Below, in pieces: positions 5,801-63,000 of a stretch of DNA of 64,000 bases. The translations under genes and the position numbers were made by a program. The DNA comes from Paracyclopina nana (lineage: Eukaryota > Arthropoda > Copepoda > Cyclopoida > Cyclopettidae). Location of the stretch: the NCBI GenBank assembly GCA_019096065.1, contig JAGUCH010000003.1:11284001-11348000 (forward strand). Reading direction: 5' to 3'. Under the pieces are notes generated by a model. It did not search any database. It saw only the letters and a program-made list of their open reading frames with translations, and had not been told where the DNA came from. The number at the start of each line of letters is the position of its first letter. Position 1 is the first letter of the stretch.

Positions 5801-6552
5801 TTTTGGCTATTAAGTGCTCCACATTTTAGTCCTTTTGAGCAAAATCTGTTGTTAATTTTCATCTTTTATCAAAGAAACGCGATGAAAGATAGTTTGTTTT
5901 GAAATATGCTGAAAACGATGTGACAAAATAGCAAAAATTGCCTTTCAAAACGCTGCTCGGCCCCAAGCTGAACTCGTAGAGTAGCAGTAAACAACAGATT
6001 CACTTTTCCTTATGACAATTTTTTCCATACCTTAAGGCATTCTTAATACATGAACAGGGTATAAAAACCTCAATACTAATGTATTTCAAGGCAGCTGGCA
6101 GGCAGACAAAAGTGCATTATTGAAGGCGAACCTTTTAGAAGGCAACATATAAGGCTATATAGAGGCTGCCACTTTTGATGCTGAATCATTTATTATTAAT
6201 TGACTCAACCTCTTCCACTCGCTGCCAGTTTTCTCTCGAGCCAAAGATTTATTTTTCATATGGCTTTCTTTTCCTAAAATTTTTTAAGCTCCTTTTTTGC
6301 AGTGTTTTCATAGTAAATATATGCATACTAGTTTTCTGCCCACAATTTCGTCACATCACCGCATGAATATCATCCATGAACATTTACCTAAACGCTTATG
6401 CAAAAGTCCCGCGATAAAGTTGCGGTCATTTATGCCAATTACACAATAATAATCAGCCTGATTGTTCTATAGTGCAGTTCTAGTAAAGCAGCAGCTCGCT
6501 TTAAATAAAGGCTGCTTTATTATAAGTCGTAGCTTATTTTCTGGCCCCAAGA
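2854..6552. other. Intergenic stretch upstream of the ABCC gene
   Basis: No convincing coding exon was seen. The stretch holds a locally CpG-rich patch (about 2990-3160), a short AG-dinucleotide run near 5370-5384 and MITE copy 1 (5653-6061). No clear TATA box precedes the ABCC start at 6553. Confidence 0.5.
5653..6061 (+). mobile_element. TA-MITE copy 1
   Basis: First of five copies of a ~410-bp nonautonomous element. It begins ATGTCCTGTTCATGTA and ends with the near reverse complement TACATGAACAGGGTA, giving terminal inverted repeats of about 16 bp. It is flanked by TA at 5651-5652 and 6062-6063, the target duplication expected of Tc1/mariner-type transposition. It has no coding capacity. 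It lies about 490 bp upstream of the ABCC start codon. Confidence 0.85.
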
Positions 6553-14658
<8,106 letters not shown>

Positions 14659-26700: not shown

Positions 26701-29700
26701 TGCAATCACTTCTTGATTTATGGCCCAATTCTGATGGTATGCATTTTTCTCATGCTTGCAATAGTTTTGCATGGGTCATTATCACTTGTTATTTGCCTCG
26801 TAGTATATCTGGTGCATTAGTAAATTACTATCTCGTGGAAAAGTCAAAGTTATTATTAGGACACCATAATAGGTGCTTGCATGGTATCTCTTTGAAAAAA
26901 CGACACCACAGTCCCAATTATCTACAAGGACGAGCTGCTTCTTGGTCTAGCCGGACTGATTATATCCCTACTAAATTGATCACGAAAACGTCTGGTGAAC
27001 ACGATTCTATTAGCTAAATAATGGGAAAAGGAGTACTACTAGCTGCTGTATCCAAAGTAGATATAATAATGATAATAATAGCTTACAGTGGATCGTGAGT
27101 GTGTAGGATGCTTCGATGGCACTGCTTTGTATGTTGGTGTTTTCAGCCCTGCAAATCACGTCCTTTTCGTGGTCGTTTGGTTTGGGATGGAAAGTTATCC
27201 TGGAAAGTGTGTAGGTCTCCATGCCATCCCGAAGAAACTGCAAAATACATTATGATGAAATACGTATATGTAATGCAAATATTTGGCTTGTGTTTCAGTC
27301 ATCATAACGAGCTTGAATTGGTGATCTTTGCAATGGCTTTCGAGCAGCCGCGTTCTCTGGGGGAAAAAGGGCTTTTGCTTAATGGGCTGTGAGGTCGAAA
27401 TGGCCTCTCTAACCTTCTTGAACTTGTACTTAAATGTAATGCGGCTGCTCCTTCTCCACTACTTCATTGGGAATTCATTGAATAGAACTGGTTCTGCAAT
27501 GTGCAGACCAGCATTAATCAGAGCTTTCTCTTTTTTCAAAGACTTTGCAAAAACCACCTTTCTGGCGTTTCGACTACTGCCACACATCCATTATTGTGTA
27601 CTCGAGAAAACTTGCCTCCTCTGTGGCCTTTCCCATGAATTTCCCCCTCTTCCACCAAGTTATTGTGGCGGGAGGCCTTGAGCCCGAGCTGCGACATTCC
27701 AAAATCGCCGGCCTTGAAACGGAAAAAGGCTCCGGAGGAGTGGATATGGTCACTGTCTGGGGCAGCACTGCAACAAACAAATTGGAAGAAGCCTTTAACA
27801 ATAGCAGTATTATAGCATATCTGTGATCCAGCTTGGTTTAACATTATTCAGCCACCCTAATGAAAAGTCAACAATTCTTGCTGTATTCCTGCTCCATGTG
27901 CCCTTATACTTACACCTTGTTATGCTATATCTTATAGCTTTAGGTGCAGCCAGGAACATCTCCAATAAGAGGAGCACATCCAATAATTCGGAAGATTTAG
28001 GCATAATAGCGCTGTATTGGCCCAGTTTTAATGCTCCTGATGGGCAATAAGAGAGGCCTCATTCACAGGAATGTTAACCTGAGAGCTGTCGCAAAAGTAA
28101 GCCAAGCTCGCGTGTTCGTGAACAAGATACTGCTATATTCAGCCAAAAAAGAGTAGCACTACACCATCTAGTTCTGCTTTGGAGTATACACTGTATACTA
28201 TTATATTAGTAATAGCCTTTCTTCTCCTCGATTACTCTCAATGTGAACAGGAGAAATGTACTAGATATGTCTTATTAATAAGGCACATTGTAGTGAAGAC
28301 TTTGCAATTGACGAGCAACAATTTGTCGTCTTCAGTCCAGATTTTTCATGGGCAACTAGCATTTAACTTGTGAAAGAAAAGCCTAACAAATTAGCCACTG
28401 AGGGCTAATTGTGCAGAAATTTTTTTTCAGCACAGGCAAATTAGTATTGAGGCTTTAATTATGAAAGACACCTTTGCTCTCAGCCAATGGCTGGTGATTA
28501 TTGACCCAAACTAATAAAGCAGAAGCTCGGTCATGGCAAAGTGTCAACTTTCTGCAGTGCAGTCATTCATTTCTGGAGAACTTTTTCTTTTCATAGTGCA
28601 CATAAATCTTGTTACAGGTTTCTAGAGGCAGCAGCAGAAGTTAGGCCTCTTTTTATTAGAAAGCCAGCACAGAAACAACTTTAACAATTGCTGTGCTGTG
28701 GTTTGGGCAAAAAAACAACCACACACCCAGGCTTGAAATCTGAGCATGTGTAGGAGGTTCGTATAGACCCCCCGAGGATGACACGCGCGCCCGCGGGTAG
28801 CGATAGAAGAACTTGCTACTGAAACTAGTCGAGATGTTTACTCGAGTGCGTCCGTTTATTAACTGCTGTACAATTCGTTTCACCGGGACGGGGCGCTCGC
28901 AGGCGCCCACAGAACACACCCGTATACCCGTGTTCCTGCTACAACTTCCCCCTACTGAAGGGTTGTCGTGTCCTCACGACGGGGGCCCACGGTCCGTTGT
29001 CTGGGCGTAGCAGGCCGAACCGGGGAGATCGGTGGGGCCGGTGAAACCGCGACTTCCGGGAACGGCTTGAGCGGAGTGGACGTGGCAGAGGGCACCGTAG
29101 GCACTGTAGCTGCCGGTAGCACGGTCATCAGGTAATTATGCATTGACTCGTTTTGCCGGGCCAGCACGTCCACCTGGGCCTGCAGGTTTTTGTAGACCGA
29201 GTCCTGTTCTTGGGAGAGGGCCTCTCGCAGCCGCTGGCGAAATCCACGTCTAGTGCGGGGCGCGGCCTCATCCTCTTCCACGCCCGCGGCGCCGGCTGCG
29301 GCCGTCGCATACTTGGGCGGTGCGTCCTCCTCGTCGTCGTCGTCGTCGTCGTCGGAGCTGCCCAGGTTGGCCAGGCGGAATGCTTGGGTGGTCCCACCCC
29401 CGGGGTGGCGGCGTCCTCGGCGAGAGGGCCGTTCATCATCGCTGTCGCCCCCGGGGAACAGGATCTGATCCTGCCCTAGGTTGGTCACCATCCTCCACGG
29501 CATCTCCACCATCAGGAACGCCGTGTGCCAGATTGCCAACAACATCCACCATCCGAAGCCGCGTCGTCGGTAGAGGATGATCATACGGAGTAGGGCTCCC
29601 AGGATCAACTTCAGGAGGCCCACGGTGATGAGGAACCCAGTGAAGTACGAGTAGTACTTCCCCACCGAACTGAAGAAGGGAATGATCGCACTCCCCACGT

Positions 29701-32700
29701 GGTCCACCATTTGGTCAATGTCCTCCTGGGACCAGAAGGTGGTAGAGCGGCTACCCGTAATCAGGGAGTTGTGGAGGACGTTGCTGGTGATCGTGTTGAC
29801 CACCGCCTCCCGGCTGCTGAAGAGGTGGAGGTACAAAATGTGGTTGGCCCGTTGCTCCGCAGAGAACACGCCACCACCCAATCCGCGGCTAATGTCGTAC
29901 TGATGGCTGCGCGGAGCGGCGTCGGACATCGGATTGAGCTGGGATGGAGCGATGCAAGCGTGGATCTGGGGCGTGGCGCACATCCATTGATTGTGTATGC
30001 GCCACTTGATGGGCGTGATCGAGTCGCACGGGACCACGCTCGGCCGGTCGGTCAAGATAAACGACAGCGGGTCCGCAAACCGGGTCTCGTTGTTGACCAG
30101 CACGGGGATTTCCTGGGTGCAATTGTCGATGGACCGGGTGACCGCCTGTACAGGGTAGCAGGACGTCACGTAGGCCACGGCCCCCGCCCTCGTGACGAGA
30201 TGGCCGGGTCCGTGGCTGTCCAGGGTGGCGTATGACGATGATCCGGAGGCCATGCTCTGCAACTTGGAGTGTAAGATTGCGCGCTCATTTTTGCAAATCA
30301 GTTCTTGTAAGAATTTAAACCGATCCTGAATGTGCAGCGCATGTTGTGAGTGTACAAACGCGAGCTGCGTCTGGATGTTCGCTCCGTCCATGTCCTCTGG
30401 GTGCAGGTACTTGGCTTGCAGGGGCCCTTCCCCGGGCCCCACCAAGAGGATGGCAAAGTCCCTCAGCTGGGTGGTGAACAGCTTCCGCTGACACATGGAT
30501 TGTACTCCTTTGAGGACGAACCCCGCGAACCTTGACTCCTCCTCATGGGCTAGCAGGAGGAGATCGCCAAGATGTCCAGCTCCTCCCATGAGGCTGGTGG
30601 CGTTCCGGTGAGGATAGAGCACGGCAGGCCCTCGATACACTTCACTAAGCTCGTCCTCGCAGCGAGGTGACTTCCGCTTGGGCCACACAATAGTACCTTC
30701 CGCATCGTCTTGCACGATGAGGTCCTGGAAATTCGCCGTCAAGTGGTTGGAGAACACCACCCGCCCGTTGGCCGTATTCAGCTTCCCGTAAATTGGCTCT
30801 ACCAGCGCATGGATGGTGGTGGTCTCGTATGATTTGTAGAACGTGACACCTCCGCTGGTTAAAGTGGTGGTGGTGCACTTGTGGTCCTTATCCAATCCTC
30901 CTTTGGAGAAATAAGAGAGCGAGGTCGGATTATTGAGAGCTACCTCCACCTTCTTGTTCTCCACTATCAGGTAATGCTTCTCCGCGGCCTCCCGACACGC
31001 TTGTGGGGTTACCAAGTAGGGCCGGTTGACATCAGTCATTTGACTGCCATAACTGATGCTATCGTATCCACATCTTGTCACTTGTCGGGACAAATGCACC
31101 CTGCACCGGAAGGCCTTGATCGAGAGGGTCGACGCGGTCTGGAGCACCTGGACTGTGATATTGACGGGGGCCTGATATGCACTCCGAATGTCCTCGCAGA
31201 GCTCTGGCTGACTCAGGTCGATGGCTTCGTGGATGGCATCGGGGTGCGCGCAGTCGTAGGTGGTGAATGACGTGACCTTTGCGTCCGGGGTGTAAAGATC
31301 AGCGACACGGCTCCGGGGTGACGTCCCCGGGACCACGGCCGCCTGGGCCAGTTCACTGAACAGGATCCAGTAGGCATACACAAAGAAGGCCATCAAGTAC
31401 ATAGAGGGCCAAAGAAAGCAGCTTACTGGCGTCATGATTTGTTGATTTGTGGGTTATGAGTTTGTATGGTCGCAAATTAGATTAGCACTGGTACTCAGAA
31501 CTGGAAGAGAGGAATAGTAAATTATTGAGCTGTCATAATTTTGCGGCCAGAATGCGAAAGTTTTGAAGTTTTACTGTTTTTGCTGTTTTTGCGTGCGCGC
31601 GTGTTGCCACCCCCCCAAACTTTTGTATGAGGGCAGCAATATGCGCATTAATCAAATACATTATCAGAATTCGGTGTTGATATGGTAGAATTTTGCCCTT
31701 GTGATGATGATGATGATGTTTGTGATCGCGACGCTTCTGGGATGGTTGATGGTATTGACGGTCTTATTGGTGGTGGCCGCGGTTCTAGCGGTGGCAGCAG
31801 ATACCTCGTTGTTTCAGGCAGAGCTTGTGCGGTTGGTGCTTGTTGCAGGGGCAGCAGTGCATCGTCGCGACTTGCTTGCTTGTCGCCGCTTCTCGTTCTG
31901 GAGCGCGAGGTCTCTGCGAGCTTGTCTTGGCCTCCTAGTATTTGCTGTGAATATTCCTGCAACATTTCTGCTGCCGTTCTTCTTTTCCTCGGTGGTGGCC
32001 GAGGTGTTGGTGATGGCGGCGGCGAGTTGTGGCCGTAATCATCGGGTGAGATTTGGTCCTGCTGCTCACCTTCATTCGGAGGGGTGTCATTATCGTCCTG
32101 TGACATGTGTTCAAACATGGTGCAGTCATATTCTGGAATGGTTGGATCGTCGTTGAATGGCGGAATAGTGTCATCCTTCGCATGTGGGAATCCATATTCG
32201 CGATCCGTTGGTGCTACTGCATATTCGAACGCATGTGTAGTTTCGCTGGGCTGTTCATCGGAGGCTGGGTCGGGGGCGTGCATATGCTCCGCAGATTCAT
32301 CTCCCGGCATGTCGAAGTCCATGTTTTCCGTGGGAGGCGATGTGATGGTCTCGGCTTGTGGATCTGACGGTTCGATGTACCGTTTCAGTCGGTCCACGGA
32401 GACAACCTGCTTCTTGGTTAGCGGCCATGATGGGTCTGGCGAGATTTCGTACGTGAGCTCGTTGATTCTTTTCTCGATGGTCCAAGGGCCGGTCCAGAAA
32501 GTTTGCAACTTTTTGGATATTGACCGCACGATTCTTGGCGTGAACAGCCACACTTTCTGGCCTGGGGAGAAGGCTTGCTTATCCATATGATAGGCCCGTC
32601 TTTGCCGTTCAATGGATGCAGAAATGTTCTTGCGAGCCCACTCATGCGCGAGTTGTATCCGTTCCCGCAGCTGCTTGGCGAAACGGCCAGCTTCGGTTGC

Positions 32701-35700
32701 CTTATGCACTGCCGGCTGCGGGTCCCCAAAGATGAGATCGAGGTTGGTGGTAGGTTGCCTGCCGAACACCATTTCATAGGGAGCCAGCCCCGTGGATCGA
32801 TTCTTTGTGGTACGCAAGATGAATAATGCAAACGGCACTACTTCGGCCCATTTAGAATAGTGTCCCTTGATCATCTTACGTATGAGCTCGTTAAGGTCAC
32901 GGTGGGCCCGCTCTACTGGGTTGCTCTTTGGGTTGTATGACGGCGTGGTGTTGGCCTTGATGCCTAAAGCCGAGCATACTTCCCTCATGAGGTGTGCTGT
33001 GAAGTGAGTACCTTGGTCGGTGTGCAGGCGCTCCGGCAGTCCAAAACGGGGGATGATTTCCGTCGTGAGGAATCGTACCGCTGTCTCGGCATCATTGGAT
33101 CGGCATGGGAAGGCTTCGATCCACTTACTGAACACACACTTGGCCGTGAATAGGTACCGGTGTTGGTTGGACGTGGGCTTGAACGGGCCCACATAGTCAA
33201 GGCTGAGCACCTGGAACGGAAATCCAGCATGGCGTGGTACCAGGGTGTGCCGCTGATCCGAGGTTGCGGGTTTAGATTTCTGACACAGCAAGCAGGACTT
33301 TACGACCTCATCGGCCACTCTAGCCATGTTTGGGAAGTAGAAGTGTTGAGCTGCCCGATGGATCAGGTTGTCTCGACCCTGGTGTCCCATGGTTTCGTGC
33401 ACGTGCCTCAGACTGGCCTCCTCCCACTTGCGAGGTACGATGAGCCGAGTCGAGGGCCGGCCTTGCGGGTCACGCAGCCGGAGAGCTCCTTGCTGGTCCA
33501 GGCATAGGCTGTTGAATTGTTCCATGAGTACCCGCCCTCGGGCGGAGGCAGCATCGAGGTGGGCTCTGGAGGGAGCTTGCTGGAGTTTGACCAATTGGCG
33601 CAGCGTCACCAGGTCGTCATCCTCCTCCTGAGCTTGGCCCATAACTCCGGTTTGGTGGGAATGAGCTTCAGGCTGGCCACGCGGAAGAAGTCGTCATCGG
33701 AAACTTCAGCGCTAATGTGGTCTCCTGCTTGGTCCAAATGAGGCGCACGACTGAGGGAATCGGCATTGCCGTGCTTGGTGCCTGCCCGATGGACGACCTC
33801 AAGTCGTAGTTGGAGATGGTGTCGAGCCACCTGGCCAACATGCCCGTCGGAGCCTCCATGGAGCGAATCCATAGCAGAGCCCGGTGGTCGGTCCGGAGGA
33901 TGAACCTTCGATGCTGCAAGTAGTATTTGAATTGCTTGATGAAGATAATAACAGCGACCAGCTCTCCCTGGTTGGCGGAATAATTGCTCTGGGCCGAGGT
34001 CAACTTCTTTGCTCCGTACAAGATGACTCGCTCCTTGCCTCTCTGCACCTGGGACAAGACCGCCCCTACTGCCCTGTTCTCTTGGGAGAAGTCGGTGTCC
34101 AAGATGAACGGGTTTGGGGACGCGAAGTCGGGATACGCAAGGACCGGGGCCGACACGAGCCGCCTTTTGATCTCCTCGAAAGCATCACGATACTCCTGCG
34201 ACGGTTCGAAGGTCTGAGTATCAGAAGTCCCATCATCCTTGGATAGCCGGGCAGTCAGTGGCGCGGCGATGTGTTGGTATTTCTCGATGAAGGCCCGGTA
34301 GTAATTGGCCTTGCCCATGAAGATGCGAAGGAGTTTGCGAGTGTTGGGTAGCGGCCACTTGCGAATGAGATCTATGTAAGCTGGCATGACTTCCAGCCCT
34401 TTCGGGTGACAACATGCCCGAGGTAAGTCACCCTGGTCTGGAAGAGGTGGCACTTGGTGGGCTTGAGCAACAGGCCTGCCTTCTGATGGGCCTGGAGGAC
34501 GATCTTGAGGTTTTGCAAGTGCGAATCGAAATCGGGGGAGTGAACCAAGCAGTCGTCCAGGTAGGGCAGGGCCACGTTCCATGGCACGCCCTCTAATACC
34601 AGGCGGTTCAAGCGGCTGTATGTCTTAGGGGCATTCGTGAGCCCGAAAGGCATCTTCAAGAAGGCATACGAGCCATCCCCAGTGGAGAACGTAGTCTTCT
34701 CCACGTCCTCAGCGCGAATCGGCACTACGTTGAAGGCTCCCACCGCGTCCAGGGTGGAGAACACGGTGGAGCGGGCTAGCCGGCTCAGGTTGTCCCTCAC
34801 GTCCCGATGGGGTGGGAATCGACCACCGGGATTTTGTTGATCTCACGATGATCCACTCGCCATCGGAGACTGCCGTTCTTCTTGCGAACGGGGACCACTT
34901 GAGCTCACCGATGGGATGAGATCGGAGTGATGACCTCTTCTTCCAACCACTTATGGATCTGCTCCTTCAAGGAGGACTCCAGGTTGGGGTTGATTGGCCT
35001 CCGCCTAATGTTGATCGGTCGGGCGCCAGGCTTGAGATCTATCACATGCTCCACCAACTTGGTCTGCCCAGTGCGACCATCGAAGGAGAAGGCGCCCAGG
35101 TACGCGGCCAGCAGGGACGCGGCCGCCCTCAGGCGTTCGGGATGCCGGCGAAGGAGGTCGTTTTCTTTCAATCCGAATGCTTGAATCGTGAACTCGATCT
35201 TCTCCTGTGGGCTGGCATCAGGGGGCAGCCCCGGCGGCGGCTCCGCGGCCCGGATAGCTTGGAGGTGTGGTGCGGATGCAGCGAGGGCAGCGGCCTCCAT
35301 GGGCTCGTACTCCCTTAGCACACCGTAAAGAGTGCCCCCCTTTACTTGCAAGGGGTGATCCAGTGGGTTCAGCATTCCCACCAGCAGGTGGCCTCCTGCG
35401 GAGGGTCGCACCACGGCGTTCAGCCAAGGAGCCAGCTGGGTTTCTTCAGCGAACTGCCCTTCAGCCTCCAGGACTGCGGGCTTTGCATCGCCGTGAGGCC
35501 ATAGAACGGCAACGGCCGCGACGAGAGCAGTGCTGCGTGGCGGGACAGTGGCCGGCCGGAGGACACATATTGGGTATTCCCCCGGGGAAGGCTGGCTGGA
35601 GGCCGACAGGGCCCCAACCAGCGGAACACATTGGCCGTGAATTCTCAGGGCACCCCGCGAGTGGAGCTGGTCGATGCGGTGGTGGCTCAAGAAGGGCCCC

Positions 35701-38700
35701 GAGAGGTTGAAGTCCATAGACAAATTGCGCACCACTGCCGGGCGGATGGAGAACACGTGAGGGTGCTCCCCGAACTGCACCCGTAGAGGCTGCTTGAGTT
35801 CCCCCAACACTTGCAGCCGATGGCGGGCGTGGGCCGTGCCCACAGCGGTCATGTCCTCCAGGGGTCGCAACCCGTGGGGGAGGACTCCCAGTCGCTTAGC
35901 GAAGTCCTCAGAGATGCAAGTGCGCCAGCTGTTTCCGCTGTCCACTAAGGCTCGCGTCTTGATGCGGCCGATGTGCACTGGCACTTGGGTTAAAAATTGT
36001 TTATGCTGTGTGATGTGGTCTAATGCGGCCAAGATGAGGGATGCTGGCGTGACCCGGGCGGAGCCCTCTACAACCGGGTCGGGTCGTTTCCCGCCGGCGT
36101 ATTCCCGGAAGCTTCCGACTCGGCCTCAGGGCCGGCCTCACTGATCTCGTTGACCTTGGGCCGCTTGCCGGCGGACTGCTTGCCGCTGGACTGGTTGGAA
36201 TCGGAGGACCGCTTCCGGTCCGAAGGCTGGCCCGACCCCCACTTGCCCGAGGCGGACGAAGAGCGTTGCTGCAGTTGGCTTGCAGCTTTGTGCCACTTGT
36301 TGATCTTGGGGTTGTAACGGTTGTTGCGCTTGTCCCGCTCGAGGGCGCGGCACTCGGCCCGGCGATGGCCTTTCCTCTCGCAGTAGAAACAAGTGATGTC
36401 GGCATCGGCATCCGAGGAATGCAGGGCGGCTACTCGGCCTTTGCTTTGCCCGATCGTCATCCAACACTCGGCTTGGCAAGCGGCCTCCAGGGCATCGGCC
36501 ATGGTGGCGAACTTGTGCCCGGCGAGGCCCATCACTACGTCTTTGCGGTGCATCTTGGTGACGAAGATGCGGATGAGGTCAGGGTAGGTCTCGACCTCCT
36601 TGGCGAGCTCCGGTCTGGCTCGAACAAAGATGCTCCTCAGGCGGGCATGCCATTGCGGAATAGCCTCCTCTGCCTTCTGCTGGGCAGTCTCCAAGGCAAT
36701 ACGGGCCACCTGAGAGGACGTGGCGGTGACGAAGAACCTCTCGTACGCATCCAGCAGGTGCATGAAGGTGAAGGCTTCGTCACCCAGTCGGAGGTCGACC
36801 TCGTTGACCGTCCGGAGCGCCACCCCGACCATGGCGTGCTTGATCTCCATTTTCTTGGTGGCCTCCGAGGCCGTTGAACCCAAGAAGGTGGCCTCTACAT
36901 GCAGGCGGAAGGTGAGCCATTTATCGGCCTCTGTGTCCTCAAACTTCTCAAGTTTCCGCTTGCGACCGGCGCGAGCCGCGGCGGCCTCGGCCTCGAGGCG
37001 CCGGGCTTCCGCCTCCACTTGTCGCAACTCGGCCTCCCTCTGTCTGGTCTCGAGGTCGGCGTTCCGTTGGGCTTCGAACCCGCGAAGGAGTTGGAGCATC
37101 ATGGCTTGCATGTCTCCTGACGCCGGGGGTGCGTTGTTCGGCCCGGCCAATTGGGGCGGCGGAAGCCCGCCAGCGGCGCCGCCGCTTCCCCCTGTGGGCG
37201 TGCCCGATCGTGGGTGGGTCCCGCCCTGGGCCCCAAGTGGATTGCCTCCTTGGGCCCCGCCAACCCCGAGGGGGTTGCCCCCTTGGGCCGCCAACCCCGA
37301 AGGGCGCGAGGACCTCGACCTCCTCCCGGCGCGAGCCGGCGAGGTGGCCAGGATCGGAGAGATTATCGGGGTCTTCGTCAGCGGAAGATGGGCGTTGCTT
37401 TGGTGATCGAAGCATCATGATGTCTACTGTGCTATACAGAAGGAGTTAGCTTAAGCGTACAAGCAATTGAAAGTGTTGCGTTTTACCAGCGGTGAAATGG
37501 TGCAAAGCGAGAAGATTGGGGGTGTAATAGCCTTGGGAGCTTCCAAAGAACTGGGCTCGACCCCCCGATCAGCTCTCTTTTTATTGTCACCAGATCAGCG
37601 CAACGGCCGCTCTCATGGCCAGCAGGGGAATTCTGGCCCCTCTGATAAATTGTTTTAAAACGACTCTCTCTCAAGATTGTTTACAAGATCTGGTTTACGA
37701 CCGGTGATTTAGGCGGCCAATTTTAGCTATTTAGCTATTAGCGAAGCTTCATTAGCAACAGGATGCGAGATTTAGTTTACAACTTCTTGCAGCTGCAACA
37801 GCAGTCGATCTCCCCTGTTACTAGGAGTAACCTTGGGAATGGGGCCATAAAGAGGCCAGCGGCTTGGTCTATTTGCGACCGTATTTGCGCGACACAGTGC
37901 CGGTCTCCGAGTGACCATTTATGGCCATATTTTGTGCCTGATCCAATCTCGAAAGTGACCGTGAGCGGATTAGCGATAAGCGGTTGAGCCGACCCATCTA
38001 CGGGTCAAGGGATTAACTTCCCTATTAATACATTGCTCAGTGATCCTGACTGATCCTCAAGAGCCAAGCCTTTTCCGGCCTTCGCCTGGCGGCCCGCCGC
38101 TGGGGTCCGCCTGACGGCTTCCCGAGGTATACTTCTCGGGGTAATCGATAGTCGTGGCCTGATTTCTTTCTGGCTGCGCGCGCGCGCAGTATTTGGGAGC
38201 GTGTAGTTAGTTGTTGTTTATTGATCTTAATGCAATCATTAACATGAATCGTTCTGACAAATGCGCGTTTTTCTGCAGAGTAACGCGGCCTCCCTGCCAA
38301 GGTTTCGATGGTGGCCTTGTTGCGAGGGCGAGGCTGTGATGGCGACTCAGGTGTCCAGCGATCTTGCTGCCTGAGGGCCCGTGCTCTCCTGGTGATGCCC
38401 GCCATTCTCTGTGGCGCAGCCTCAGCCGAGGACAAGCGAGGTGATTCTAGCGACTCAGGTGTCCAGCGATCTTGCTGCCTGAGGGCCCGTGCTCTCCTGG
38501 TGATGCTCGCCATTCTCTGTGGCGGCCTCAGCCGAGGACAAGCTTGCTCGGCGTACGATAGCCGGCTGACAGCGTATTCGCGATTTTCTGCTATAGTGTC
38601 GCGATGCCTACTGCCACAACACCTCCATGCGATCCGGGCATACGGCCTCAAGGGACGCGCCCGACCTCGGCCTGGGGTGGATGCTGTGCTCTGGTCATTC

Positions 38701-41700
38701 TGGCACGAATGCTTGACTGGCGCAAGGGTGACGACTCGCTGCCGGTGTCACCGGTGTCTTGCTTGGACTGTGGTGTTGGCCTACGGGTGTGGCTCCTTGC
38801 CACGCCCCTTTTGGTCCCATCTGGCTATTTGCTCAGCCATATTGCTGTCCCTTATTTGCGGGTTTGTTGGGGCGAAGGTGTCGATAACTCGGGGAGTTGT
38901 CCTACCGACCGCGCCAACTTGTAGGAGGTTCGTATAGACCCCCCGAGGATGACACGCGCGCCCGCGGGTAGCGATAGAAGAACTTGCTACTGAAACTAGT
39001 CGAGATGTTTACTCGAGTGCGTCCGTTTATTAACTGCTGTACAATTCGTTTCACCGGGACGGGGCGCTCGCAGGCGCCCACAGAACACACCCGTATACCC
39101 GTGTTCCTGCTACACATGACTGAGAAAAAGCCATCTTAACTTGATCCTGGTGTTGAAAAGGAATAAAAATGCAGCAACTTCATTTGCAAAACTGGAATTG
39201 AGTGTAGGCTTAAGGGCTAGCTGTAAAGTTGGCCTCTCAAATAAATGGCTAGAAGCAACATTCTGAACTCTTGTTGGCTCAAGAAGAGTTGACAAGTTGT
39301 GCTATATGTTGCAAGTTGGTATTGAAATTTGCCTGTAAAAGATCTTAATGGAGCTCACAAGCTGACAGCTTGATGTATGCCATTCTGCAGAGGTTGTGCT
39401 AACTAGCAAATTAAAGCCAAAAAGTTTCTTTTTTCATTTTGCAATTACAAAAGCAGCCTTAATTTGGTAGCTTTCCCAGAAGAGCTAGGAGGCAAGCCTA
39501 CTTTCTAATATCTTAATTCTATTGATGTTCTGAAAGAATATTAGATTGCTTTGGTCCATGACATTTCCAAATATGGTTTGCAAAACCAGAAAATATTTAT
39601 GAAAAGGCTGCAGAGAGTGATGATGATCGTGCGCAGCAAACATCATCCATGATTTTAGCATTTTTTCGATCAAAAAGCTGGCTTCTCCCCAAGTTTGCCT
39701 GCTTCCAGAGGAGAAGAAGGAGCGGTTGGTTACACAAAAGCGAGGAGCAAAACTTTTGAAGGGTCCCGGGTTGGCACTGGTGCGGTTGGTGGCTTGTTTT
39801 TGCTCAATTGTGGTATCACACGCGTAAAAGTTGCCATGGAATCTAGATTGATCGCTTAAATATATCCTCGTCAGTTTGTCAAGCAAACTTTCGTCTTTTC
39901 GAGCACTGCAACTGCACACTATTTGGCGTCAAAAAACAGCAAGTTTCTTCTCTTTTTGCAGCGAAGCAAAGCTACAAAAGTTGGTGTCAACTTGGCTGTC
40001 AGCTGAGAGCGAAAAGCAAGTTACTCCATTGCACAATTGTTTTGAAAACTGCACGAGTGCAGCGTTGCCAGACCTAAAAACGCAAAGTGGCTCTTTTTCG
40101 CAAAACTAAGAGTTTTAACGTTGTTCCTGCTTGAAAACTCGAGGAGTTTGGCTACTTTTTCTCTTCTAGTGAATTACTTTCATGCAAAATGCAAAGGGTG
40201 AGCTTCCTCTTTGAGGAAGCTGCTAAATATCTGTCAAGCGCGAGCATGCACGAGTAGCTCCGTTTCTTCTCTGACTGAGCTTGAAAGAAAGTTATTAGGG
40301 TCTATGAATGGGCTCCTTGATGCATTGATGATGCCTCTAATCGTCCTCCCTTTGAGGCTGGGGGAAAAAGTTCAAGACTTACGTCTCATATCGATGGTGA
40401 CATTCGTGGCTGCCGGTCTGGTAACGTTGTTGTTCGAGGCGAAGCAAGTTAGCGTTTTGCCAAAATGGCTCCTGGTCAAGGCGTTGATGTGCAACTTGTT
40501 TTGAGCCTCTTGGTGGGTCTTCTCGAACATGGAATCAACTATGCTCGCCTCGGGCTCGTTTTCTTGCCAAACCAAGTCGGGTAATGGATATCCTAATGGG
40601 ATAGAAACATTGAAGAACTGGCCTCACTTCTTTTGGCATGCCAACACTCTATTCACCTCCTCCTGCTCATTTCCTTCGAGGATATATAAAGTGCTTCATC
40701 ATGTGAAAAAATGGCCATCTTTACATCTTTAGCCCTACCTTAGCACAGTGGGTAAGTAAAATTACTACAGAACAATAATGATGAGGACAAATGAGCTTGA
40801 TGCAGTTTTTCTTTTTTTTTTAAATCAAACCTGGTTTTCTGCTGCTGATTTAGCCCTTTGTGGCAGTTGCCTTACAGCCTTAATATTTCAGCAGCAGCTT
40901 TGGTAGCTATGAATAAAACTGGCCTATTTTTTGTCAGGTGTCACTGCATTTCTCGATTTAGATTTTATGGCCCCTCCACCAAAAGAAAGCATATTTGCAC
41001 ACCTGCAAACGATCCCTTTCAGCTGGCCATGAAAATTATGTATAAAATCCTGTATATAACTTGAAAGCTCAACAGATCGGCAAGGTCAATCTCATCATTT
41101 TGAGCTGCTCAAAAGTACTACCATTAGTGTTTTTTGCTGCCCACTGTGCCAATGCCATTATGGCAGCATAATGTACTTTTTGTCTGGTGGAAGTGGCAAA
41201 CTTGATTGTTTTACCTTTCTTGGAAGACATACAAATGATGGCCAAGGGTTCTCCCTCGTCGTACGGCCCAATAAGTGACCCCAATCTTCGGCCACTTGTG
41301 TCCAATATTTGCGGTGGATCAGGGGGAACTGAAAAATTATACTACTATACTCCCTAGCTATAAATATGGCACAGTTCAAATCTTACCAACGACAGTGAGG
41401 TTGACCAGTGTGTTGATCGTTTGGGACCGCTTGAAATCGACCCTGCACCTGTAAAGGCCATTCTCGTGGGCCTGAATGTTCTCGATGAACATGGTGGCAT
41501 GATGAGGATCGAATGTAGCTCGAGCTCCAAAGCCTCTGGGAGAATCTTCACTCCAAGCAGTCGCGTTTGAAACAGCCTCGCGGGCATCGTATCTGCAACA
41601 CGTCAAACTTCCATTGAGCACTTGTTGTATACCAGGCCGTTCTCATTTGGCAATAAAGCTAAGCAACGTTCAACATGGTAAGCAAAGTTAATGTTGGGCG

Positions 41701-44700: not shown

Positions 44701-47700
44701 CGTAATGGAAACTCTAAACATGAAAATTTGGAAAAGGCCAAGACAAAGCTCGTGTCATGCAGATTTAGGCCCTGTTCATGTATTAAGAATGCCTTAAGGT
44801 ATGGAAAAAATTGTCATAAGGAATAGTGAATCTGTTGCTGACTGCTACTCTACGAGTTCAGCTTGGGGCCGAGCAGCGTTTTTAATGGCAATGTTTGCTA
44901 TTTTGTCGCATGGCTGTTGGCATTTTTCATAACAAACTAGCTTTCTTAACGTTTCTTTGATAAGAGATGAAATGTAACTAGTGATTTTGCTCAAAATGGC
45001 TAAAATGCGGAGTGCTTAGTTGCCCAAATTAGATTTGTTTACTTTCCAGTTGGCTTAAAGTTGATCCGATTTTTTTTAGCATCAGCTGGCGCTTGTCATA
45101 AGACAATTTTTCTCCTTTCCTTGAGGTGTTTTTCGTGCATTTTCCTTAGGAGTTTGGGGCGTACATGAACAGGACATTATAGCCCTAATTGAGCTAGGTA
45201 GGGTCAGGTGAAAGTTTCACACACACACAGTGGAGTGGCAAAGTTTGACAAGGACAAACGCCTCTCGGCTAAGAAGACAAAAGTGCTTGTCATTTATTTG
45301 AGGACGAAAAAGTTGACTGAGGCCAGCCTCTTCTCCTGCAGCTGAATGCCAACCTGTGCTAACCTGAACTATGATAAGTTTGAAACTAAGCTCACGTGAA
45401 GATGGGCTCTCCTTTGGTCCCTCGATACCACAACACTGTGGCTAATTGTTCTTGAGGGTTTTCCGGACTGGAAGCATGGCAAACGAGTGCAGCCCGACCT
45501 CCAACCAGGACCCAAGCAGCCTCAACATCCACTTTATCTGTGCCTGAAACGAAAAATTGAATTTAGCTCAGAATAGGCCTACCATAGCTAGTAGTATGAT
45601 ATAGGCAAATCCCATCTCCGATTTTTCCCAGTTGTGGAAGAAGGAAGATGAAATTGCCATTAATATAAAAGAGGGAAACTTTTTACTATAGCTCTCCTTT
45701 TTTTTAATAGGTTAAAAGGTTCATGGGTGATTTGGAGTCATGGTGAGTAGCATGATTTGTGACTTTGGCCCCCTATTTGATCCTGCCGATTCGAAGCGAG
45801 CCCTATGCTAAAAGGGCTACTCGGTCGAAATATCAAATCTCACGCCAAAAGATGGCTGGGGTCTTGAACAGCTCAACTTTTTCCTTCTTTGGGTGAAATA
45901 AAATATCTTGGTGCCATTTAAAAGTTTTGCCCCACTAAATTATATGGCAAAATCTTACATAGTTGTACTACATTTGAAATGCAGGAAATTTACTTATATG
46001 TTTACTTTTGCAAAAATGCTCAAAAACTCTATTGAGCCTCTTGTGAACATTTATACTGTTGTTTTTTCAGCTTTAGTACACTTTTTGCTGCTGTACACAA
46101 AGGCTTTCCTCAAATCTTTAATCCAAAGGGGAAGAAAAGGGAGCTTCTTAATCAAATAAGACGCGAATGTGCTAGGTAAAGTTTTCACTTTTTTCTCAAT
46201 ATAACAACATCTCAGTAGTTGTAGCATGGCTGTGTACTAACTTTGTTCGACTGTAGTTGCTTTTGTTCTTGCTAGCTAGCTGCTGATACTGCTATACACG
46301 ATACTTTGCTGGAAACAACTTGTCTCAACCTTGTTGTTTCATTGTAAATTACTACTGCTGCCACTCCATCGACGACAAGTAGCAAGATTTTTTATTGCAC
46401 CTCTTGTCTGTTCGCAGTACAAAATCTACCCACCTGCAAAAAATGTACAAGTAACTATGGCAAAATGTCTAATTACATCATACTGGTAACTTACTAATTA
46501 AGTATTGCTTTCACAGTGCCCTTTATAGCAAATGAAATTATTAGCTTTAAAAGCCTATTTATAAGGATAGCAAAATTACTGGGCAACTTTTCTCCCTAAA
46601 AGGAAGTGAAAAAATTCAAGATACACAATTGTCAGTTTTGTATCATAGTTTTGGTATTCAAATGGATGTATGCAGAATTGTCAATATGATACAAATCATC
46701 AACTTTTGAGCCTTGTTTGGTACAATCCAGCAAATGTAAGCTTGGCAAAATCCCTCTTGAACTAAAAAGGGATGATGATTTGAATAGCCCTGCCCCACAA
46801 AACAAAAAGTATGTAGTAAGTGTGTAGTAAAGCCAGTTTGAAAATCAACCATGTCCAAACTGATTAATTTTGACACACATCAATTCATCTATGTCCATAG
46901 AGTACTCACAAGTTTTTTTTTTCACTCTATCATAATTAGTCTTTGAGATATTCAATTTTAAAATATTCGAAATGGCGACAAATCGACGAACTAGAAGTCT
47001 TAAACATATTTTCATTAATCTTTAATTTTCTAATTGATATGACTTTTATAGCATATAATGAAGTCATTTATCAAAAAAAAATTTTGATAAATCAAAAAAT
47101 CAATGTTCCTATTTTTAGTATATTTATTGCATATTTTAGTTATTTAATCGTAACAAAATTTATACTTATTTTTATCCCAACTCATATGCTTCCATACTAA
47201 TGATAATTGTTTAAATGAAATGTATACTAATGCCAAATAGTTTACTTTTATAAGTATGAATTCAAAGACAACTTCAAAATTATTTCATTAATTATTTTTT
47301 GTATATTTTATCCCTGTTAAATGCCCACTCTCCTAATTTAATAGGTTAGTACTAAATGTAGATTGACTTCATTTCGTTACTCCAAAAAATCCATCTTCTT
47401 AATCGACACTATCTACAGTTATGACTACCCTCCAAGAACCATGCGCTGCTATTTGGCACTGCTATCTGCTAAGTCCGGTGTTAAGGTATATTTCTCAGAC
47501 TTAATAAGTCTGTATTTTATCTGTTTTCTTAAATTGAACTTAGTAAACTGTTCAGAGATGGCTCTGCTTGCAATTCAATAATTTGTGAAATTGTTCTAAT
47601 CAATAACTTTGAATGGTTTTAAGATTTCAAAAATCCTCATTAATAGATGTTGTTTGGAACAACATGAAAAGTGAGTTGGTAAGTATCATGAACCTCAGTT

Positions 47701-50700
47701 TTTATACAAAAACTGAGATTTTTAGAATATTTCAATATTTTTTTACATGTACCACAATCACTTTAGTCCACTCTATTTTTTCCGAATCAGAATTTTCTAT
47801 GTCTAAAGACTTACATATAAAATGGGTCATTAGTGTGGAGAGAGCATACAATTTTCAGGCTCACATTAAAATTCAATACATTTTGTAACATAGTTGTTTT
47901 TCAGGATTTGTATGAATTGTATCTTGTTATTTAGTTGTGAATTAAAATCGGTCTTATATCCCACTTTAATGTATGTAACACCTTAAAAAAGTACATGGAA
48001 ATGTCAACTATGTCTAGATTTATTTTGTTTCAATTTGATTTAATTTACTTGTTAATTTTTTAAAAAGTATAGTACATACCTATAAAACAAGAAAAATTGA
48101 CAATAAATACCTATAAAATAGGCATAGCAGATTCGAAATTTGTCAAAAAAAAATTATTTTTAAATAAGTCTTTTATTAGATGAAAACACTTTTAAAACAG
48201 ATTCAATACTATTAATTTATAAATTAAATTATAAATACTATCTATAATAACTTATGAAACAAAAAAATTCATGTATTATTTTCACACACGCATACCATAG
48301 GATAAAATAAAAATGAAATCAAGTTGAAAGCGATAAGTTTTAGAGATCAGGATTTCGCAAAAATTTTATGAAACGGTTGCGTTACGCTTTTAGGTATATT
48401 CTTGTAGCAAGAATACCGATCAAAAATACGTACTAAATTAGGATCAAATCGGTATGGTTTGCGGATTTGTTTTGTGGGGTGCTCCCTTATAGGCTGTCAA
48501 GTTTGCTTATCTTTTACCTTCAATTCATAAATCTTGTGAAATCTTTGACATCTTCTTTTTCATGGAGGAGAAAACTGGGGAGCAATGTCTAGCTCATGCA
48601 AGATTGCTAGGTCAATGTCCTTGCCATTTCAGACGTAAAATGGCTGCAGACTGTAAGGCATCACACGTTTAGCTTCTTTTATGGATGGTGGTGCGCCCTC
48701 CGCAATTTAAAATAGAATGGCCTACATTTGACAAACAATGGTCCAACATGTGGAAAGCGTACAGCAAAGTACGCAGAATAAGCCTGCTTACAACTGTTTG
48801 CATGCTAACAAACCATCCTGCATCTCTCGGAAAATTCCCTTTTTACCAGGAAAAAAGAAGCAGGAGAAGCATAATAGGATATATGCCAGCTAGCCAGGAA
48901 AATTCCTTTGTGTTCTGCCCCACAATGGAGTCAGTTTTTTGGCTCTATTAGGCAAATTCTTGCTGTCGTATTTTGCTTCTGCAGTACATTCCCCTTTCCA
49001 ATTAGAATCCTCCAGGTTGAACTTGTTTGTTCATTTCTCGCTTTTCTGCTCCCTTTCATCGTATTTTGCCATGTGTTGAATACGCTCCATATATGTAGTA
49101 GCATATAGAGCTGTATCTGCCTTGTGTAGTTGGCCAACTTTGATGTGAAATAGAGTTACAAGCAGGAATGAATTCCCAGCTCTCATCTTGTTTTTTCTTT
49201 TAGATCATTATTTTTGGTGGCTTTTTTGTACTACTTCAAATTACTTGCCATTTTGAAGCCCAAAAAGCTGTACTATTTGCCAACTTGGCTTAAGTGGGCT
49301 TTCACTAAATTACATTGGGATGATTTCATATAACGCCCAAAGCCATTTTCAAACAAAACATGCCATAAATAGTATACGTACTACAGTAAGCTGAATACAT
49401 TCCTAAGTATTTTTTAAAGATGGCAGAACAGTTAATCCTTTATAGTGGGGATTTGCTAAGCTAGGGCAACTTAAACTTAACTGGTCGCAGCGCTACCAGA
49501 TGTTTTTTCGAAAAGATTCCGCACGTTCACTTTAATTAAGCCACTTTCAGTAAGTCGAAAAGCAACGCCATGTTTACCGTGTTTCAAGTAGGAATCTGCT
49601 CGCTTTCATCGTTTTTTGCCATGTGTGGAATGCACTGTATTAATATACCTGCGTCATGAACCAACTTTGATGTGAAACGGAGTTACAAGAAGGAAAAACA
49701 GCCAAAATGAATTCCCCTCTCACTTTCCAGTTTTTACTGAAAAGTGGTTACTCACATGAAATTTTTACTGCATTTAGATGCATGCTACTTGAAGCCATTG
49801 AGCTCATGATGTATTTTCAGGACCCAAAATACAGTGGTGTATTTGCTACATTGGCTAAAGTGTGCTTGCTCTTAATTAGATTGGGACGATTCTGTAAAGA
49901 CTTTCTAACAAAGCATACAAAGTTGCTTAGTGCATGGTAAAATGGCTGGGAAATTGATTCGAGCAACAAGTTTTCGCATAAAGATATCAAAAGGGTGCCA
50001 TAAAGTTGGCTTTTAAAGGTTAGAAAGCCTGGTTAGCTACTGAAGAAGCAGTTGTGTGTGGCTGAGGCAAAAAAGCACTTTGCATGTTTTGCCACAAAAA
50101 TCTCCCTTAAGCACCTCATGCAATCCTGTTATCACAATAACAGATGAGTGGGGGGAAGGCCCAGAAATGCAAAAAAGCCAGGACACAAAGTAGTCTTGCC
50201 CTGCGACGACGAGAACGAAGCACACATAACAACAGTGAAGGAAATTGATTGTGGTCTTGAAAAACCTCGACGTTTATATAGGCAAAAGTTCGGCCTTTGG
50301 TCGCGATTTATATGCAGCAAAATCAATGTCTGCGAAAGCTTGCTAAATAAGCCAGATGTGTATTTTCATGTTTTAGCAATGAAAGTTGAGGAAAATCTGT
50401 GGGAAGTCTTGATGCAATCAAGACCTCTGAAGTGAGCTTTCTAAGCTAAGGAAACACTCAGAGAATTCGAACAATTTCAAAAGTTACTACTACATAAAGG
50501 ACAGGTAACAACAACTCTAGCTTATAAATTCTGTAAAAGCGTAGAAAAGCTGAATACTATACCGAAAGGAGCTGGAGTTGTCGTGGTTGTCGTGGTCGTG
50601 GCCTCCGATTCCATAACGAAAGGGAAGAGTGCACCTTCGAAGTCGCCCATGATCGACGTTGGAACGACAGCTTGGAAGGAAGGTGGTGGGCTCTGCACCA

Positions 50701-59000: not shown

Positions 59001-60019
59001 GATTTGGTGAGTTGAGTACATGTGTCATTAATACAATGCAACAACTTTCTCGAAGCAATCCATATTAAATTAATCTTTGTGAGCTCGCTCACATTTCATG
59101 AGTTTCAGAACCGTCGAGAAAATCTTTTTTGCTAAAAAATGGCGAAACTTTTTTTGCGATGTGTCGTGTGATTTTTCAGGTGACCCACATGTCATTTTTG
59201 GTGAAGGAAGCGGGGAAGCCAATTTGTCATGAATTTATTATTTGATGAAAGTGGGACAAGAGGCATTACTCTTGAGGTCAGATAATTCAAAAAAATTCTT
59301 TTTTCTGGCATGGTGTAGTACAAAGTTGCATTGGAATTTTTCAAGTTCAACCGCGTGGCTATTTTGGTGAGCAGCCGGGAATTCGACCGATATATTCTCA
59401 CATAAGCCAAACTTGAGCGACCTTGATTGGCTTTCAAAAATTGGTTGACAAGAAGCCCAATTTGTCTAAAAGAAAGCCTTGCTGCACAACCACTTCTGCC
59501 ACTGCTACAAGTTACTACTACTATGGCTCTTCTCCTCTGATTTATGGCTGCGGTAATTTCAGCCTGCTACTTCTCGCCAACTCTTTACTTATGCCTGCCA
59601 CCTTCTGCTAATTTGCAAATAAATGCTGAAGCACTTGAAAAAAGGGGAATTGCCTTTGGCATTTCGATGCATGGGAAAAATTCCAGACTTTTGATCTCTA
59701 CAAAAGCTCAGTACTTTCCCGAGGTCGGGTTTCATTCACAAAAGAAGCAAATATACTATAATTTATTGAATTACAGCAAGAGGATTCATTGTAATTTCAC
59801 TGCAAATATTTTGAACATGTGAAAGAAAAAGATTACATTCTCTATAAAATAATTCCGCACATTGTACTCCGCACGGAATAATTTCGTTAGAGAAGGTTGC
59901 GCGGCTTCAAATATAAATTCCGCCAAATCGCTCGCAGCAAAAACAAAAACAAAACAAAAGTGGAAAACAGTATCTCTCTTGATGTCCTTATCTTTTGGAT
60001 TGACTTGAGTGGCGAAAAT

Positions 60020-63000
60020 ATGGCCACGAAGAGGTCATTGTCAGAGTCCAGCACCGGAAGTGAGGATGCTACCGAGGACTTTGACACCAAATTCAAAGTT
60101 CCTCGGCTCAACTACCCGCAGTTCGAAAGGCGGGAAAGTCAAGCCTCCACAGCTTCGTCCACGACTTCAGTGTCGGTTTCAAGTGATTTCGATGAAGCAG
60201 ATGTCCAACATTTGGATCGGGCGCTTGACACCAACTCTGAGGATTCCGAGGAAGAGCCGATGGCTTCTTTCGGGCAATCTTTGCCCCAAGCTGACACCAA
60301 AGTGAGATTTCTAATGATTCAATTTTCAACGCAGCTAACTGTTGTTTCCATGAAAATTTTTCAGCCTGCTAACAGCAAAAATGGACAGTACTCGTCAATT
60401 GCCCAAAAACTCATGTCCAAGATGGGATATCAAGCCGGCAAAGGTCTTGGCAAGAAAGGACAGGGCATTGTGGAGCCTGTCTCGGCCTCGACCCAGAGAG
60501 GCCGTCGGGGTCTAGGACACATCCTCAGAGGGCTCGAGGACGAAAAAGTAGACTGGGATCCGTCCAGAGAAGCGGTCGAGGTGGACGAAAAAGTCTACTG
60601 GCTTCCACCTAATTCCGAAGCCTGTCCTTCGATGAGCACGCTAAGGTCATGGTTGGCTGAGGGGCCGAGAAAGGAGACCATCGACGACGAGGATAAATTT
60701 TGCAGCCCTGAGATTCTACAGAGCGTGCTGAAAAGCAAGTCCATTTTTGATCAGCTTGAAGGCCACGAGATGAGAAAGGCGCGAACACGATCGAATCCCT
60801 TTGAAATCATTCGAGGAGTCATGTTCCTCAACAGAGCTGCAATGAAAATGGCCAACATTGACGCGGTCTTCAAATTCATGTTCACAGAGCCACGTATGAA
60901 ATAACCTTTTAATAATGCATTGTTGTCACATTTGCAAGCATTTTTTTTTTTCTCATAGGAGACAAAAATGGCCACCCCATGTTGGAGTCTCCAAATTCTT
61001 TGCTTTACTTTGCTGATGTCTGTGCTGGTCCTGGTGGCTTCAGTGAATATGTCCTGTGGAGGAAAAAGTGGAGAGCTAAAGGATTCGGTTTCACGCTGCG
61101 AGGTCAGAACGATTTCAAACTTGAGGACTTTTACGCTGGAACTCGTACGTACACAGAATTCAGCCATACTTGAATTGATGATGCCTCATTCTTGTAATTT
61201 GTTCCAGCTGAGAGCTTCGAGCCTCATTACGGGGAAGGTGGACGAGATGGTGATGGAGATGTTTTCAAGGAAGCAAATATTAGGGCTTTCACCAAATTTG
61301 TTTTGGAGAACACTGATGGTCTCGGTATGCAGCCGAATAATTTCATTCACCTTCAATTCAAGGAGTCTTTCAGGCGTACATTTCATGATGGCTGACGGAG
61401 GCTTCAGCGTGGAGGGACAGGAGAACATCCAAGAAATACTTTCCAAGCAGCTGTACTTGTGCCAGTGTCTGGTCGCCATGTCCATCGTTCGAGTGGGAGG
61501 CAATTTCGTCTGCAAACTTTTCGACCTTTTCACGCCCTTCAGCATTGGCCTTATGTATCTAATGTATCGTGCCTTCGACCGAGTCTGTATCCACAAGCCA
61601 AACACATCGAGGCCAGCCAACTCTGAACGCTACATCATTTGCCAGGGCAAAAGATCCGATGCCTCAGCCATCAGAGATTACATGTACGAAATTAATTGTC
61701 GGCTCAACGAGTTAGGATTCTCTCAGCTTGGAACCACACAAAGCCAATTTGATGTGGTTGAAATTGTGCCCTTGTCGGTTATTTTTGCCGATACCGAATT
61801 CACCGAGTACATGAGGAACTCAAATGACAGCATTGGAGAGAGGTAATTGGCCCTTTTTTGAATAACTTTGTAAATTGCTAACAAATTGCCAATTTCAGGC
61901 AAATTGTGAGTTTGATCAAAATAAGGGCGTTTCATCAAGACCCAGAGCTACTAGAAACCAGGCAAAGGCAGATCCGCGACGACTGCTTGAAAATGTGGAA
62001 GATTCCGGATCAAGTGAGAAAAGCACCTTCATTCGAGGATCCGCAAGTAAGCAAAGTTCAGCTTATTATCGACTTTTCAACCCTTGATGATTTTTGCCAT
62101 TGCAGCAAAAAGTCCTTGAATGGCTCGGTCCCGCGGCCTCGTCCATAGTGGACTCCACCTCGACTATTTTGACTCCAGTGAACCTAAAAGAGGCCATCAA
62201 GTCCATCTTAGATTGGAAGTGCGTCCTCGTTGGCAGCCAGGAAGCCACTTTTTACATGGGCATGGGGCGCAGCAGAAATTACTTTTTCAACAAATCCGCT
62301 CGAAGGTGGAATCGAGTGCCTGAAACGCTCAAGTTTGACCTGCCTGCTCACACCTTGATCTACGCTGAACCCGTCCAGGAATGCAGAGGCGAGAAGAAAG
62401 GCATGCGAAAGTGCCCTGCGTTCCACATCATCGATGCTGCCATCATAGCAGGCGAAGATATCACGAAATACGACTTGAAAGCTCGCAACGAGATGCTCAG
62501 GACTTTTGTCAAAGCCATGGCCAAGCCCAGTCTGTCCGACTATGTGATCATGCGTGTCAAGGACATTGTTGGCCTGGAGAACCTCAAGGAGCACTTCTTG
62601 TCAAAGCTGGTGCTCAAAGTGATCAAGGGAACGAATGGTCCCCGACTAACCATGGACCTTGACCGCGAGGTCATTTTCACTGCTGATGGAGACGAGCGCG
62701 AGGTGTCGCGATATTTCGTGCCCTCTGGTATCCTCATGTTTCCCATTGTCAAGGAGCCCTACATGATGGCTTTTTCGAAATCGCAGCACCGCAAATATTG
62801 GTACAACTACATGACCAAAAACTCGGTATTTGAATGTCCTTCAGATGCAATCGTGGATTTCAAAACGTCGTTCAACCGAAGGTGAATCACGCTTAAATAA
62901 TGCACCGTGTTTTCTCCAGCCACTGGTTTTTTTCTTTAGAGTTCCTATATGAATAATGCATGCCTTTTTGCAGGCTTCTCTGGAATTGGGACGAAGGTGT

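Follow-up and report, generated by a model that had tools for sequence, protein, structure and literature searches.

The window studied here is a 64,000-nucleotide stretch of the Paracyclopina nana genome (contig JAGUCH010000003.1, positions 11,284,001 to 11,348,000), and all coordinates below are counted from its first letter. On the minus strand, at 28749-39114, it carries a complete Ty3/Gypsy long terminal repeat (LTR) element with gag, pol and env, in which env encodes a predicted chuvirus-like class III fusion glycoprotein. The features of the element, in its own 5' to 3' direction, are listed here.

39115..39118, unstranded: target-site duplication CATG, 5' side
38920..39114, minus strand: 5' LTR (TGTAGC...CCTACA), identical 195-nt repeat
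38899..38916, minus strand: primer binding site, 18 of 18 bases complementary to the 3' end of the host tRNA-Ser(AGA), CCA included
37419..38898, minus strand: leader of about 1.5 kb from the primer binding site to gag, holding two 89-bp direct repeats
36068..37414, minus strand: gag frame, 448 codons stop to stop, with a PNMA-like capsid and a CCHC zinc knuckle
36086..36092, minus strand: -1 frameshift heptamer GGGAAAC in the gag/pro overlap, read as G GGA AAC by ribosomes in gag, upstream of its stop codon
34905..36125, minus strand: pol frame piece with the protease and the N-terminal part of reverse transcriptase (PF13650, E 0.0019, below cut-off)
34372..34842, minus strand: reverse transcriptase core piece in another frame, YLDD motif (PF00078, E 1.2e-20; Ty3 reverse transcriptase 4ol8, E 2.4e-17)
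33668..34624, minus strand: RNase H piece in another frame (PF17917, E 7.5e-27)
31648..33693, minus strand: integrase piece with H2C2, rve core and an extended C-terminal tail (PF00665, E 2.5e-17; PF17921, E 1.7e-13)
31501..31517, minus strand: predicted splice acceptor CTATTCCTCTCTTCCAG, 65 nt upstream of the env ATG
28952..31435, minus strand: env, an 827-codon frame open from ATG to stop, predicted to encode a chuvirus-like class III fusion glycoprotein (PF24664, E 3.2e-75; structure model and fold matches)
28945..28953, minus strand: polypurine tract AGGGGGAAG, before the 3' LTR
28749..28943, minus strand: 3' LTR, identical 195-nt repeat
28745..28748, unstranded: target-site duplication CATG, 3' side

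The two LTRs, each of 195 nt, stand at the two ends of the element and are 100% identical. Together with the tRNA primer binding site, the polypurine tract and the short target-site duplication, they are the landmarks of Ty3/Gypsy elements (Metaviridae), and they bear out the first-pass annotation of the window, which had recognized an LTR retrotransposon with a 195-bp LTR. A 4-bp target duplication is present in all five insertions inspected (the window copy and four others). The tRNA-end pattern has six matches in the genome, all inside tRNA-Ser(aga) genes. In the same four other copies, the first 10 bases behind the LTR are one base off the window form, which is kept in at least two other copies (C1:4300460 and C4:9262803). 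The direct repeats in the leader lie at 38328-38416 and 38436-38524 and are 92% alike. The element has a GC content of 0.579, higher than that of its flanks (0.397) and of host exons (0.514). An Rfam scan of the window gave no match, and ARAGORN found no tRNA in it.

Env has an N-terminal helix and a Cys-rich ectodomain, then, near residues 596-623, a hydrophobic helix that is followed by a long tail, in agreement with the intact third gene (signal-like N terminus, Cys-rich ectodomain, membrane helix and tail) that had been described at first pass. Its predicted fold matches chu-like glycoproteins and then herpesvirus glycoprotein B (gB), and the gB/G ectodomain fold of class III viral fusogens is present in the predicted model. 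In a Pfam scan of Env at E values up to 1, only PF24664 and a weak Neogenin_C match were found, with no match of the baculovirus-F type. A PDB sequence search with the Env profile returned one unrelated chain (E 0.17), so the link to gB comes only through the fold search. On its predicted fold, we assign Env to the chuvirus-like class III fusogens, not to the baculovirus-F type of errantiviruses. The first-pass annotation was right to set this element, with its complete env, apart from Drosophila errantiviruses; the chuvirus-like type of Env, which is the point of interest, had gone unrecognized.

The sequence relatives of Env are 16 unnamed metagenome proteins, 33-45% identical except for one at 27%, and when proteins were searched again, this time using the Env alignment, 15 were obtained, none of them new or named. 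For 12 of the 16 relatives the longest contig is 9-12 kb, and none of these sizes occurs among the contigs of 100 integrase relatives. This indirect evidence agrees better with exogenous RNA viruses than with Gypsy elements. No confirmed locus was obtained when viral contigs were scanned with the window Env, the integrase, the Env alignment, P0040 and P0005, or when genome contigs were scanned with the Env alignment.

The first-pass annotation had proposed a search for further full-length copies, and this search shows a multi-copy family with env behind integrase. It covered 91.95 Mb in 10 contigs; 40 of 135 LTR candidates were scored, and the copy counts are lower bounds. At least 20 LTR pairs are 99-100% identical to the window LTR (in 16 of the 20, both LTRs are identical to the query). 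There are at least 59 scored env matches, corresponding to 55 places with four split in two (of 476 candidates), and at least 104 gag matches (of 364 candidates). The copies form two subfamilies, A, with the window copy, and B, in which identity to A is about 69% for integrase and mostly about 73-86% for env. An integrase match lies upstream within 4.5 kb for 44 of the 59 env matches; three of the other 15 were inspected, and all have integrase in broken frames. In A, the integrase-to-env spacing is about 200 nt, with 29 of 44 paired matches falling between 197 and 217 nt; the three clear B pairs have a wider gap, of about 340-360 nt. Whether built from Env (25 rows) or from integrase (92 rows, mostly unnamed metagenome proteins, with 16 of 100 relatives left out for short overlap), the tree places all host copies in one clade at 100/100. 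The nearest rows to the host clade in these trees are unnamed metagenome proteins. Eight metagenome Gypsy integrases near this clade (P0022, P0026, P0029, P0031, P0033, P0039, P0040 and P0042) share with it the tail motif M.GDE.AE. The element is most likely a member of a young, recently active, multi-copy family.

The matches of gag to PF14893 (E 1.8e-4) and PF00098 (E 0.0087) are both under curated cut-offs, and its zinc knuckle matches Ty3 Gag (E 0.0091). The gag-pro frame relation claimed earlier holds: it is -1, with the putative slip site GGGAAAC at the overlap. This heptamer is found in 9 of 12 junction pieces of other copies, subfamily B included; two of the remaining three have no match to the window junction and one ends short of the site. 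As in other Ty3/Gypsy elements, the order is protease, reverse transcriptase, RNase H and integrase, with a Ty3-like reverse transcriptase (best PDB match) and integrase; the PDB matches of the integrase core are Ty3 (7q5b, E 3.9e-23) and the integrase of prototype foamy virus (PFV; E 4.1e-23). Since 15 of 68 scored integrase matches in the genome lie in open, stop-free frames of at least 1,480 codons, six of them in copies at least 90% identical to the window copy, pol is by nature a single frame, about 1,490 codons long elsewhere in the genome, and is broken in the window copy. A programmed frameshift within pol is ruled out, as copies whose pol is a single open frame occur in A as well as in B. 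The 664-codon integrase frame stressed at first pass exists as an open reading frame; it is a fragment of broken pol and is uninformative on lineage. Because of this break, the window copy cannot be autonomous as assembled.

At 56-92 nt upstream of the env start, 13 of 14 copies that belong to subfamily B or are more diverged have a pyrimidine tract with CAG and then TCTGAG; the fourteenth has AAG instead of CAG. The site looks like a splice acceptor for env mRNA, comparable to those of retroviruses and errantiviruses.

Selection on Env was measured by Nei-Gojobori counts, with env codons 30-660 in 11 A copies (55 pairs) and integrase core codons 1-425. The ratio of nonsynonymous to synonymous substitution (dN/dS) of the env ectodomain is 0.004-0.031 in the 48 A pairs whose dS is 0.1 or more (maximum 1.39), and that of the integrase core is 0.022-0.310 and above env in 47 of the 47 computable pairs; the pairs are non-independent, the copies were drawn from a list ranked by Env similarity, and several integrase copies are broken, which raises integrase dN. 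The open-pol copies L010, L018 and L020 give 0.010-0.019 for env and 0.048-0.064 for integrase. Thus, Env in subfamily A is under strong purifying selection, and its very low dN/dS implies that the A lineage has relied on Env for most of its history. When A is compared with 8 of 10 B or more diverged copies picked by integrase rank, env dN is 0.060-0.272 and integrase dN 0.138-0.264, with env lower in six of the eight and dS near or beyond saturation. Between the subfamilies, the env-below-integrase difference is non-uniform and is clouded by broken env.

We consider it highly probable that the window element is a recently inserted provirus from a multi-copy, retrovirus-like and presumably infectious Ty3/Gypsy family that spreads with a captured chuvirus-like fusogen. 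The ancestor of the family would have acquired a chuvirus-like glycoprotein gene behind integrase; since both subfamilies have env in this place, the simplest reading is a single capture before the A/B split. Reverse transcription would be primed by tRNA-Ser(AGA), whose binding site is seen, and Gag-Pol would be made by -1 frameshifting at the conserved GGGAAAC. Env would be translated from a spliced subgenomic mRNA that uses the conserved acceptor 65 nt before its ATG. As a class III fusogen by predicted fold, Env may then bring particles into other cells, with germ-line cells the probable target, as for Drosophila gypsy, or let them enter new hosts. The envelope is usually the fastest-changing retroviral protein. 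Because Env is here held tighter than integrase, we put forward, tentatively and with less than even confidence, that this is a still-spreading Gypsy lineage which took its fusogen independently of Anakin, a mosquito element discussed below, and which is an obligate infectious agent with Env-mediated passage as its main survival route.

Several observations weigh against this interpretation. The Env model has a mean pLDDT (predicted local distance difference test) of 68.9, and its TM-scores to gB are low, at 0.18-0.40. In the viral fold search, rows 7-9 carry the labels qin-related, xinmovirus and Drosophila unispina virus, so the donor of Env need not belong to Chuviridae. PFV integrase is tied with Ty3 for the integrase core, and the hairpin downstream of the slip site has no excess stability, with 93 of 200 shuffled sequences as low. 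The window copy itself has protease, reverse transcriptase, RNase H and integrase in different frames, and pol or env is broken in many other copies, partly via one-base length differences in short base runs, which may be assembly errors. Finally, eight B copies (L029-L035 and L037) have env broken into several frames, and seven of these have an open 1,485-codon pol. Since env-broken copies keep open pol, part of the B lineage may be moving without Env.

The last point speaks for the view that Env is a dead-weight passenger of a family that is now an intracellular retrotransposon. This view also accords with a ninth B copy, L042, in which the env frame ends near codon 600, and with broken env in several young A copies. 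It is difficult to reconcile with the dN/dS of the A ectodomain, which is 0.004-0.031 over 48 pairs at dS 0.1-1.4 and below that of the integrase core, and with subfamily B, where pN/pS is 0.05 over the first 330 env codons, unlike a relaxed old dead gene, and 0.64 over codons 342-484, the stretch with frame breaks. We regard the passenger view as improbable. A long-dead env in B is no more than possible, given this pN/pS and breaks that are not all common to the copies. Most breaks in B are gaps of one base within or close to short base runs, and many occur in a single copy only, so assembly errors are possible; reverse-transcription slippage and trans-mobilization of defective copies are possible as well. 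Copies such as L029-L035, with open pol and differing env breaks, could be env-less spreaders or assembly errors. The protease-reverse transcriptase gap of the window copy recurs in some copies of two A subgroups, and other copies of both are free of it. In the reverse transcriptase junction pieces L075-L085, a length difference of one base within a short base run is found repeatedly in part of two separate A subgroups.

The remaining alternatives fare worse. An errantivirus proper of the Drosophila gypsy type with a drifted env would have the same three-gene layout, 4-bp target duplication, tRNA primer and acceptor before env. It is very unlikely, as Env matches the Monjiviricetes fusion family and the gB fold, and the baculovirus-F type of Env that marks errantiviruses was found neither in the Pfam scan nor among the fold matches. 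Co-option of Env by the host as an antiviral or cell-fusion gene, with selection acting on the host, would suit the copies with open env and broken pol, the window copy included, and the antiviral role proposed for solo chuvirus glycoproteins of mosquitoes (PMC7642597), but it is the least credible of all, as strong constraint acts simultaneously on numerous copies, of which most lie behind integrase and several are newly inserted, and as the excess of env-open, pol-broken copies fades once copies are chosen by integrase. Copies found by env have 26 of 33 full-length env spans free of stops, in a list ranked by env score. Among 24 full-length A copies of at least 90% identity, ranked by integrase and counted by hand, env is open in 14, against about 11 expected from length alone, and pol in six; for five of the 10 copies without open env, no match is among the best 55 of 476 candidates scored in the env search. 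That env is kept while pol decays is thus unproven.

Anakin, a BEL/Pao element of mosquitoes (PMC7642597), likewise has a chuvirus-type glycoprotein gene behind integrase inside its LTRs and young copies with highly similar LTRs. In contrast, the window element has a Ty3/Gypsy-like pol and LTRs of 195 bp versus about 670 bp; its reverse transcriptase and integrase are of the Ty3/Gypsy and not the BEL/Pao type, and it is set apart on this ground without direct comparison to a BEL/Pao reference. A later study from the Anakin group (PMC10084718) describes Gypsy fragments near chuvirus glycoproteins with no clear capture by Gypsy or Copia, and one complete unclassified element in Bemisia tabaci. 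Errantiviruses and related insect endogenous retroviruses (gypsy, ZAM and kin) share the gag-pol-env Ty3/Gypsy layout, env behind integrase and an expected spliced env; the Env of these elements belongs to the F type and is a relative of baculovirus F (PMC12992720), whereas the window Env is predicted to be class III and chuvirus-like. TelKA elements of bdelloid rotifers are also LTR elements with a fusogen from negative-strand RNA viruses, theirs being a paramyxovirus class I F-type protein (PMC5408684). Env-bearing Ty3/Gypsy elements outside Drosophila are presented as widespread and ancient in PMC13172572 and PMC12859917, and the window element is one more such element among Metazoa. In the excerpts covered by our literature search (including PMC12282059, PMC9963324 and PMC12440569, and not the 2025 eLife survey of Gypsy env genes), no chuvirus-type Env is described in a complete Gypsy element. 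With Chuviridae and related Monjiviricetes, Env shares PF24664 and its best predicted-fold matches; unlike theirs, this glycoprotein gene resides in a reverse-transcribing LTR element. Chary and Hayashi (eLife 2025) reportedly found F-like and herpesvirus-gB-like Env proteins in Gypsy elements; if so, the window element would be a further member of their gB-like group and not the first case.

The element shares its orientation with a surrounding immunoglobulin superfamily (IgSF) gene and is enclosed by exon pieces at about 25.4 kb and 40.4 kb. On both sides of it, the minus strand has exons with weak immunoglobulin-domain matches (most below Pfam cut-offs), together with a membrane-spanning exon. 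The joined exon translations match Fc receptor-like 5 (E 5e-10) and contactin-2 (8e-9) best among PDB IgSF chains; Robo, Sidestep VII and Sidestep IV are matched as well (E 2e-5 and 4e-5 for the two Sidestep chains). The earlier claim of a guidance-receptor intron is plausible; the gene is perhaps of Sidestep type. Elsewhere in the window, an ABC-transporter gene of several exons lies at 6526-14658 on the plus strand, with TMD0, membrane regions and two ATPase domains. G-patch and FtsJ methyltransferase domains occupy neighboring frames at 59891-62885 (plus strand), as in a CMTR1-like cap methyltransferase. At 46001-48000, GC dips to 0.306, against about 0.36-0.42 in the adjoining 2-kb windows.

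Capture of an RNA-virus fusogen is one route from retrotransposon to retrovirus. In the portions of the literature examined, a chuvirus-type Env is known from BEL/Pao only, and the targeted survey (PMC10084718) gives no clear Gypsy case. Since Env is among the best-kept parts of this element, our results suggest that the element lives by infecting cells. A young, many-copy family in a single 92-Mb genome, with two old subfamilies, open env frames and relatives whose env is broken, is a testbed for the retention and loss of Env. The same family allows a test of whether infection or internal transposition drives its spread.

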